Part shown: piece after piece, positions 58,331 to 61,550 of the stretch
Numbering within the stretch: the stretch's first letter is position 1
Layout: every line of letters starts with the position of its first letter
Assembly: GCF_021134715.1 (NCBI RefSeq)
Contig: NC_060024.1
Location: 992,001 to 1,056,000 of the forward strand
From: Daphnia pulex
Taxonomy: Eukaryota > Arthropoda > Branchiopoda > Diplostraca > Daphniidae
Direction: 5' to 3'
Length of the DNA stretch: 64,000 nucleotides
Notes under the pieces: generated by a model
The model's input: the letters and a program-made list of their open reading frames with translations, nothing else
What the model was told of the DNA's origin: nothing
Database searches by the model: none
Made by a program: the position numbers and the translations under genes

Positions 58331-60657
58331 GCAGCTGATTTTTTTGTGATCTTTGGTTACTGCGACAGCCCCGCGACCTGGTGTTGGAAGGGTGGAAGCT
58401 TACACTGAAACAACACAGAAATTTTCTAAGTCCCTCGTAAACAAATCAGAGCTATGCGTACTTTGCGCATCCGTTAAACAGATTGATTGACGATTTTCTA
58501 ATTAAGATTAATTTCAGATGATAACAATAGATTTCATTGGTTCAATTTATAACTTGTAATGTGTATTAACGGCAGTCAGTGGAGCTTAATAACTTCCTTA
58601 TGCTTTCAAGACTCGGAAGTGGTAAAATTCCATTTGCTTTCAAATGTCTATATGTCTTGCTGCTTTTAAGTCGAATTTGAAGACAATGCATCAAAAATAA
58701 AGGGTCGTAACGCATTCCTTTCTTACAGTTATCTTTTCCCGGTTTTGCTTTAGCTTTGTCCATCATAGTTTTCACGATTAACTGTTCCTGATAGAGATTT
58801 GAAAAATCTATTAATAAACTGATATATGATATGGTCTTTAGTAAGTATGGAATGTCATTGTCAATCGTCTGGAATATTATTTTTGAATAGTCTTGCGAAT
58901 AAGTTGGATTTCACAAATGTGAGGGTTGGAATAAGGAATGATATCTCTATCGAAATAATTGGAAAACATTGGTCAAATAGGGAAGCATACATATAGTCTA
59001 GTCATGAGGTAATTAAATTAGTATTTCATTGTTACCGTAGGACTCAGGCACTTTAGTTTTTCGTCAAAGTTATTCTTTTTCTGTTCCTTAATCAATTTTT
59101 GGTTTGTAATAGTCAAAGTCTGCTTTTCTTTTTCTAAATTTGACACAATTCCAGAGACCAACTAAAATTACAAATAGAAAATATATTAATAGTAATCGTA
59201 TGTTAATTTATGAATAACAAAAAAATAATTACTTTTCCTTGTTGGAGAATTCTTCTCATTGCTAAATTTCTCTTTTGCTGTTGGTTTTTCTTTTGAATTC
59301 CTGTCCTCTCAGCCTTACAACCTAATTGTTTCTTGCGAGTCATCAGATATTTCTTAAGGAATTTGCAATTCAAACAAACATTGTTTTCAGTAAGTCCTGT
59401 GCACCGGTTAGATCGTATGATTTTTCCGTCTTTCACAGCGCTACATCGGGACGTCACACAAACATTCGCTAGTGATAGTTCAACAATTCCATCACACACA
59501 TTGCTTACTTCCACGGCACCAATAATGTTAGATAAATCTTCAATTACATTGAAATTAGTCTTAACATTACGGGGAAATATTTGTTTTCCATTGAGGAACA
59601 ATTCCACCTTATTCATGGAGACAACTGAGATTGTTTTTATTACAATTTTGCGATCTGGAGAAAATGAATGACTGAAACACACGAGGGTTTTGTTAACCTT
59701 ATCTTCTTGCCACATCCACGAAGAGGAAGGTAGTTTGACTCTCGCAATAACATCAGTGTATGTAGCTGGGTCAAGGTATCCTTCCATTTCTGTCTCCCGT
59801 GCTGTTTGTTCTGAATTTTCTTGTAACATTTCTTCTGTCATTTCACCCGGTGCTCCAATCAGTTCATCCACTTCCATATCATTTGGTTCAAATTCTACTC
59901 TCAATTGAGATTCAGATTCAGATTGTAGTTCTTTTTCAGGTGGAATGTGTAGGAGTGTTTCAGTAGTAGGTTCCTGGAACATGTCTTCTGTTGTTACACA
60001 TGGTAATGCCACAGGTTCAGCTGCTTCCATATCATTTACTTTTCCTTTTTCAGCGTCAAGTTGGTGTATAGCTGTAACATAACATGTCATGTTTTTAAAA
60101 AATATCTTATTACACTTAGTTTTTAATTTACCTATGCTATTTGACGTTGACTTCTTTGCATGTGATGGGATCAATACATTGGTGTTGTTATTCGACAAAA
60201 ATGATTGATTGTCCAACTGCAGCTTAGGATTAGCAGCTTTAGACTTTGCTGTTATATTTCGATATGGTGACTTAAACCTATCACTGTGAACATACTTCTT
60301 TGCAGCAGGTCTTTCGAGTACGCTGACATCATTTCCTGTTAGAAACATACAGAATTAGCAGTATTAGTATAACTTAACATTGTCATGGATAATTAAAATT
60401 TGAGAATACCTAGCAATTTACTGGGCCGAGCACCTGATTTTAATTTCCATTTCGGATAACTGTAAAACACGCCTTGAATTTCTCTCCCTTTAAGTATGTC
60501 GTTCTCTTCAAAATGAATACTGCAAATTCTGGACTGGCAAGTGAGTCCTGGCTTTTTAATAATTTCCTGCCAGGAATTTAGACACAACTTCGGTGGATGG
60601 AAAAACGCAAGACTTTCAATTTCTTTGTTATAAGAAGATTTACAATTAAAAACGAAA

Positions 60658-60842
60658 GGTTAAATCTATTGCCACGACATGATGTCGTGGCGCGACGGTC
60701 AAAACTGTCTATTGTCACGACATCTGTCGTGGCAATAAAGAGAAAATTGTCTATTGCCACGACACGCCACGATACGGCTATACTTCCTCTCTGATCTCTC
60801 ATATCGTGGCAATAACACGAAATTTGTCTATTGCCACGACAT
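60658..60842 (+). repeat. Foldback element terminal inverted repeat, left
   Basis: It pairs with about 61200-61373. The left copy has roughly 10 extra bases (CGACACGCCA-type) near 60760. The subrepeat ATTGCCACGACA recurs near 60668, 60753 and 60830. Confidence 0.85.
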
Positions 60843-60873
60843 ATATTTTTTTAAAATTCGACATTCACGCATG

Positions 60874-60950
60874 TTAGGTTAGGTTAGGTTAGGTTAGGTT
60901 AGGTTAGGTTAGGTTAGGTTAGGTTAGGTTAGGTTAGGTTAGGTTAGGTT
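60874..60950 (+). repeat. (TTAGG)15 arthropod telomere repeat array
   Basis: 77 bp of perfect TTAGG pentamers, the telomere repeat of most arthropods. It is internal to a transposon core and bounded by unique sequence, so it is interstitial rather than a chromosome end. Confidence 0.95.
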
Positions 60951-60982
60951 ATGTATGTCAAGTTTTTTACAATAACATTTCA

Positions 60983-61064
60983 GCAGTGGTAGCCGAATGG
61001 TCAGCGATGAATGCCACCATGCGATAGCATGGCGTTCGATTCTCCGTCGAGAGGGTAATTTTTT
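60983..61064 (+). ncRNA. tRNA-like RNA polymerase III unit
   Basis: The A box TAGCCGAATGG (60990-61000) and B box GTTCGATTC (61034-61042) both fit the consensus exactly (TRGYNNARNNG, GWTCRANNC), 33 nt apart. A T6 terminator lies at 61059-61064. The start resembles tRNA-Ser/Leu (GCAGTGGTAGCCGAATGG). A hairpin CCATGC-GATA-GCATGG (61017-61032) lies before the B box. The acceptor ends do not pair, so it is not a working tRNA but a tRNA-derived unit that could be transcribed. Confidence 0.6.
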
Positions 61065-61199
61065 ATTTGGAGATTACAACAAAGGTTGAGTTTCACGGGA
61101 TAATTGACAAGAAAATTGATGCGGGAATTATGCACATGTAGTTTTACCCTATTTAGTAGTTTTCCTAAACATCTTCTGTGGAACTTAGTACGAAAACGC

Positions 61200-61373
61200 A
61201 TGTCGTGGCAATAGACAAAATTCGTGTTATTGTCACGATATGAGAGATCAGAGAGGAAGTATAGGCGTATCGTGGCAATAGACAATTTTCTCTTTATTGC
61301 CACGACAGATGTCGTGACAATAGACAGTTTTGACCGTCGCGCCACGACATATGTCGTGACAATAGATCTAACC
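61200..61373 (-). repeat. Foldback element terminal inverted repeat, right
   Basis: Reverse complement of 60658-60842. Confidence 0.85.
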
Positions 61374-61550
61374 AAAACGAAACATGGTTTGCGTGTCATT
61401 TTACATTAATCTGCATTTCCGCCATTAAAACGTGAATTCTTCGTTTCTGCAGTAAGCCATTCAGTTAGAGATTGTGTGGGCAGATGGCAGCACTTTCGTA
61501 GTAACCATGCCCTGAGGAAAGATCATTGACGGAGAACTTTCAATTTTTTT

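Follow-up and report, generated by a model that had tools for sequence, protein, structure and literature searches.

The stretch of Daphnia pulex DNA analysed here, hereafter the window, comprises 64,000 nucleotides (contig NC_060024.1, positions 992,001 to 1,056,000), and contains at positions 60658-61373 a foldback element of 716 bp, with termini GGTTAAATCTATTG at 60658 and CAATAGATCTAACC at 61373. The element is flanked by the 9-bp target-site duplication AAAACGAAA, which occupies positions 60649-60657 on the left and is matched exactly at 61374-61382 on the right. Its left arm (60658-60849, plus strand) consists of repeated modules around TCTATTGCCACGACAT, arranged as inverted repeats I1 and I2 and direct repeats D2 and D4, and its right arm (61193-61373, minus strand) was delimited by inverted-repeat analysis. 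Within the arms, one inverted repeat spans 87 nt at 99% complementarity and another 84 nt at 93%, giving the long inverted ends made of internal repeats by which MULE foldback elements are recognized, and termini, arms and flanking repeats together confirm the foldback or MULE-like element with exact 9-bp duplications proposed in an earlier, sequence-only reading. Rfam matches on the arms are to hairpin models, the best with an E-value of 0.0083 and 24.9 bits against a cut-off of 67.

The region between the arms, read on the plus strand, begins with a left spacer (60850-60873) whose 3' end is ATTCGACATTCACGCATG and which has no detectable similarity to a related, array-less family described below. 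It is followed by a telomere-type array, (TTAGG)15, at 60874-60948, in which the fifteen perfect units previously reported were counted again, and then by a partial unit, TTA. An interior shared with the array-less family starts at 60949-60989 (TTATGTATGTCAAGTTTTTTAC...), continues with motif matches to an A box (TAGCCGAATGG, 60990-61000) and a B box (GTTCGATTC, 61034-61042) and with a run of six T at 61059-61064 that may be a Pol III terminator, and ends with the remaining interior at 61065-61192.

The insertion has split the THAP exon of a dispersed gene. Protein and paralogue comparison place a 383-codon open frame of this gene at 59206-60354 on the minus strand, with the interrupted THAP exon lying upstream, and the joined flanks of the element, when read across, match the THAP domain (PF05485, E 2.2e-10). 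A search with the next exon of the gene returned 20 matches, made up of six close relatives (88-99% identical over the first 141 to 207 residues), 13 more distant ones and the window itself. At six paralogous sites the sequence is uninterrupted where the window holds the element, and these empty sites are 98.6-99.5% identical to the joined window flanks over 432-443 bp (n = 6). Each of them has the 9-bp target once, with a single altered base at L129 and no change at the other five. Since the empty sites are nearly identical to the joined flanks, the insertion is real and younger than those gene duplications; the window element is thus a real, recent insertion into the THAP exon. The THAP gene (window positions 59206-60657 and loci L126-L131) is nearly identical in its first exons at seven places and may therefore itself be mobile, and the protein matches of its next exon end at differing points, so that later parts may diverge. 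Elsewhere in the window, positions 2010-2891 form an open frame that by eye resembles an LTR retroelement in its reverse transcriptase/RNase H portion.

Genome-wide searches covered 133,188,837 bases in 13 contigs, one of which (C13) yielded a fetched piece in which translation with the invertebrate mitochondrial code shows, by eye, a frame resembling cytochrome oxidase I. The element produced 88 matches, several per copy, and the family search scored 40 of 70 candidates, so that copy counts are lower bounds. There are at least eight full-length copies of 706-791 bp, besides older and broken ones. Exact 9-bp duplications, all different, flank seven of the eight, the exception being L011, where no exact target duplication was found. 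Together with the empty sites and with L132, a short element assessed by eye, they agree with the 8-10-bp, mostly 9-bp, duplications of MULE foldback elements. The eight full copies are short, non-coding, similar to one another and differently flanked, as MITEs are. Among the 18 copies or relatives that were oriented and read, a TTAGG tract is present in 15 and absent from three (L022, L024 and L035).

The eight full copies have 15, 17, 13, 15, 14, 13, 20 and 28 pure TTAGG units. Six older or broken copies have 12, 9, 3, 5, 19 and 3, and the more distant L099, which falls outside the family on the tree, has five. With variant units counted, the array comprises 13-30 units in the seven full copies other than that of the window. 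The left joint, GCATG joined to TTAGG, is common to 13 of the 15 tract-bearing copies, the exceptions being C12:5.65M, with an extra GTTAAG, and L099, with a different left flank. To the right of the array most copies have TTA with small changes, and C3:5.59M diverges beyond TTA. Outside the array, the window copy differs from L010 by one mismatch and no gap columns in 641 bp (15 against 17 units) and from L011 by two mismatches (15 against 13 units); L010 and L011 are one mismatch apart (17 against 13 units), and L014 and L016 three (13 against 30 units). Copies separated by one to three mismatches in 641 other bases hence differ by 2-17 whole units. A variant unit, TTGGG, is common to L013 and L016, which are sisters on the interior tree, and is surrounded by differing unit numbers in the two.

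The common left joint, the shared TTGGG and the whole-unit differences between near-identical copies argue that the array was inherited and not freshly captured: they are predicted by inheritance with whole-unit change, and not by repeated fresh addition. Judged from these sequence comparisons, the array of the family appears to be an inherited passenger that changes rapidly in whole units. The recent capture at this locus suggested by the sequence-only reading is not borne out, given that the array is internal, occurs in 15 of 18 copies and has the same left joint in 13 of 15; for the same internal position and constant joint, neither is the action of telomerase on an excised end. The array was also considered as a chance repeat, a possibility rejected on a control repeat in which the TTAGG pattern is reversed, (GGATT)4, with no occurrence in the 133-Mb genome.

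A genome search with the interior returned 40 matches, about 20 to 21 of which form a second foldback family, mostly 72-81% identical. Fourteen of its members were read (L054, L055 and L057-L068), and the 13 in which both ends were recognized measure 601-668 bp, have the ends CATGGCCTACT...AGTAGGCCATG, with variants, and show duplications that match over 7 bp in 11 copies and over 8 bp in two. Two differently ended foldback families, one with 7-bp and the other with 9-bp duplications, share this one interior block. A SINE origin for the spread of the interior is unlikely, for it was matched at just 40 places and the intact copies read sit within foldback ends, a judgement that refers to the copies read (in the array-less family, 14 of about 20 to 21 places).

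None of the 14 array-less copies read has two or more consecutive TTAGG units, and 11 of them carry a single GTTAGG at the homologous point. To the right of this point the two families align above chance, with at most one of 300 base shuffles reaching the observed score in 12 comparisons; to its left they align no better than chance, with 42 to 247 of 300 base shuffles reaching the score in 16 comparisons. Because similarity extends only rightward from the GTTAGG point, the tract marks the boundary between the shared interior and family-specific sequence, and the alignments suggest that the array lies on an old joint. Among the copies found, none combines the left arm of the family and the interior with zero or one TTAGG unit.

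We consider it probable that this locus holds a non-autonomous Mutator-type foldback element, in effect a large MITE, with an inherited, fast-changing TTAGG tract on an old chimeric joint. Such an element would depend for its mobility on a transposase supplied in trans that acts on the termini. Its interior would be an old chimera, in which the A/B-box-like block, present also in the differently ended family with 7-bp duplications, was joined to the family-specific arm at a TTAGG unit. The tract would have arisen at this joint before the sampled copies diverged, a single origin being the simplest case; more than one birth is nonetheless conceivable, given the five units and different left flank of L099. 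It would since have been copied with the element, its whole units changing, to judge from the copy comparison, far faster than bases, presumably through replication slippage or unequal exchange, and the box-bearing block would be a passenger with putative Pol III motifs. For the birth of the tract, we assign about an even chance to a broken arm healed by telomerase or telomeric DNA and then joined through TTAGG microhomology, and distinctly less, although still an appreciable share, to slippage from one pre-existing unit; the rest is left over.

The best-surviving rival is a version of the same account that differs solely on tract birth. It takes the array to be a classical microsatellite, slipped from the single TTAGG of the array-less family, with its telomere identity incidental, and we hold it to be plausible if not favoured. 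The lone GTTAGG of most array-less copies, the whole-unit changes accompanied by almost no other indels, and the shortness of several older copies (three to five pure units in L019, L020 and C12:5.65M) all fit this reading. It is harder to reconcile with the genome-wide absence of (GGATT)4, the one control repeat used, while TTAGG arrays recur in several contexts, with the location of the tract at the very point where left-hand similarity to the array-less relative ends, and with the 19 units retained by the diverged copy C3:5.59M. In a mammalian study of break repair, as far as its available text goes, the bases at the break are in register with the repeat (PMC2246262). Such register fits break repair, yet a single pre-existing unit would be a start for slippage too, so that this point fits either birth.

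The proposed passenger status of the box-bearing block stands against a reading in which it is a functional tRNA-like Pol III gene and a selected cargo of the element, which on sequence grounds seems unlikely. An A box, a B box and a T-run terminator do occur in order, as in Pol III type 2 units. Scored against A- and B-box consensus sequences, the window contains one strict A-box/B-box/T4 combination, whereas 60 dinucleotide shuffles average 0.05 (maximum 1). The combination is present in 12 of the 18 family copies, but in none of the 14 array-less copies, one of which has a looser pattern. Similarity between the families is 0.83-0.85 for the boxes and the T run (0.83 for the A box, 0.84 for the B box); it falls to 0.64 in the stretch separating the boxes and to 0.58 in the bases that follow the B box. 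In the roughly 140 bp farther downstream, including the remaining interior at 61065-61192, it is 0.81-0.87, however, and of the 210 windows of 11 bases in the interior, 42% are conserved at least as well as the A box and 38% at least as well as the B box. The boxes thus appear no better conserved than the interior overall.

No tRNA is found among the 18 Rfam matches over 60600-61450 at E up to 10, and ARAGORN, with its bacterial-code setting, reports 0 tRNA in the window; in view of these results, and with neither cloverleaf nor covariance support, a tRNA gene was rejected. The A box, B box and T6 run described earlier are present as motifs, then, and the label tRNA-like applies to the two boxes only. 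The description of boxes and array as a pair of cargoes is similarly half right, as the box-bearing interior appears to be an older, shared part, found also in the array-less family. We would regard the block as a tRNA-like relic or a motif pair, possibly transcribed.

Whether either passenger is needed for movement can be judged from the ends. The outer 22 bases of the element, searched genome-wide with up to 2 mismatches, match 55 places, 28 of which belong, by place, to known copies or pieces. Of the remaining 27 termini, 10 were read, in nine stretches that extend about 620 bp inward in eight cases and measure 151 bp in all for L132; these contain neither array nor interior. L132 (G000:C1:1247805-1247893) is a complete, largely palindromic element of 89 bp that has the family ends, is flanked, by eye, by the 9-bp duplication TTTGCATTC, and carries neither TTAGG array nor box-bearing interior. 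An element with the same ends and neither cargo had been named beforehand as evidence against the sequence-only proposal, and this one instance was found. The cargoes are therefore not needed for movement: the element ends alone move. L133 and L134 (G000:C2:10431750 and 10436340) form a tandem pair, 4.6 kb apart, in which an end and arm are followed by unrelated sequence, and which is possibly a longer relative of the family; the remaining stretches read look like broken ends. MULE domains have 55 matches in the genome, and at the 12 of these loci inspected for family arms, 1.5 kb on each side, only chance-length matches and no autonomous partner were found.

Six of the eight full copies are found no more than 1.06 Mb from a contig end, in a zone that makes up 19% of the genome (binomial P about 0.001; P 0.0001 in a simulation on the median), in a post hoc test with n = 8 and a threshold picked after seeing the data. 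One of 14 older copies or pieces falls in the same zone, as do two of the 21 array-less-family places, 14 of which were read. By eye, the repeat in which L012 is embedded also makes up contig ends. This clustering is suggestive, and one could suppose that the TTAGG array makes the element reach chromosome ends preferentially, which we think doubtful. Another dispersed family that bears such arrays has only two of its 27 places (8 read) near ends, which counts against TTAGG itself as the cause, and TTAGG occurs within the last 60 bases of just six of 24 contig ends, one end being all N. Slightly less likely still is that the array is working equipment, which through telomere-protein binding or recruitment to telomere clusters brings the element near ends, where young copies insert; if this were true, the transposon would both seed interstitial telomere tracts and use them for addressing.

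A partial census of arrays, in which two of five possible start contexts were searched, places the family among the TTAGG carriers of this genome. It identified 38 array starts (29 + 9), seven of them telomeric or subtelomeric, those other than L084 and L091 being grouped by position only, and 31 lying in 26 interstitial arrays, that is, in repeats of the species' own telomere motif away from chromosome ends. L084 and L091 lie about 47-54 kb from contig ends; at both, a satellite whose repeat measures about 127 bp passes directly into long TTAGG arrays. Twelve of the 26 interstitial arrays belong to the foldback family or its older relative L099, and the suggestion that such elements seed interstitial telomere tracts is borne out to this extent. 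Eight more lie in the other dispersed family (L085-L088 and L094-L097), where arrays of various lengths stand beside a subrepeat of roughly 35 bp (CACGGCGAAGCCGTG) and some copies, with flanks that are in part about 99% identical, differ in unit number. A further foldback element, L081 (G000:C2:8780636-8780965), accounts for one array. By eye it has the 9-bp duplication AAGGATACT; its arms are GCGC-rich and its loop has about 30 TTAGG units. A complete copy was found at a single place, and pieces of its arms, about 79-86% alike, occur elsewhere. One further array, L093, lies in a repeat common to L082 and L083. In all, 22 of the 26 lie in repeats, and four (L089, L090, L092 and L098) were placed in none.

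Telomerase activity and TTAGG repeats have been reported in Daphnia (PMC4427308, available text), and AACCT ranks second in abundance among the short repeats of D. pulex and D. magna according to the available text of PMC6934441, which contains no word beginning with 'transpos'. That telomerase or break repair repeatedly adds TTAGG to excised ends, so that arrays are gained independently, is very improbable: the reported activity, one telomerase RNA-binding domain in the genome and the arrays in other repeats speak for it, but the arrays of the family are internal, 13 of 15 have one left joint, sister copies share a variant unit, and seven of eight full copies have clean outer ends and target duplications.

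Interstitial telomere tracts are usually attributed to chromosome fusion or to break repair at single loci. In the present case the vehicle is a mobile family, which multiplies the tracts that it carries. A small non-coding family offers a simple route for telomere-like repeats into chromosome interiors, and in the same genome such arrays also occur in another dispersed family, in another foldback element and in one more repeat. This affects the reading of interstitial tracts in karyotype evolution and of TTAGG counts as telomere length. Moreover, near-identical copies with different unit numbers are a natural assay of the rate at which telomere-type repeats change away from chromosome ends.

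As far as the listed matches show (titles or abstract openings of open-licence papers), no telomere-repeat-bearing MITE or foldback element has been described among them. MITE-borne microsatellites and Mutator foldback families are known, and, judged on that literature, their combination with a telomere-type array is new; the family may already bear a name in a transposon library such as Repbase. Hitchhiking (GTCY)n microsatellites in insect MITEs (Coates 2011) and MITE-borne tandem repeats in Xenopus (Hikosaka 2004), to judge by their titles as cited in PMC6947457, follow the same principle with other motifs.

The available text on Tm1, a Mutator/Foldback family of root-knot nematodes (PMC3169594), describes inverted ends of composite structure that contain internal repeats, target duplications mostly of 9 bp, and both MITE-like and cargo-bearing versions, all as here, and an outer motif, CGGTTAA, that resembles the GGTTAA of the window element. 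Unlike the window family, for which none was found, Tm1 has a transposase-encoding copy, and that text describes no telomere-type array. Tetris of Drosophila virilis, as presented in the available text of PMC4079207, is likewise a foldback element, which its authors place in Mutator, with non-coding copies, 8-10-bp duplications and tandem repeats, although its repeats are units of about 220 bp in the arms, whereas the window family has a telomere motif in its interior. Interstitial telomeric sequences at mammalian double-strand breaks also place telomere-type repeats at a joint, as here; in the available text of that study (PMC2246262) they are one-step insertions at single loci, whereas in Daphnia the tract is carried by a mobile family.
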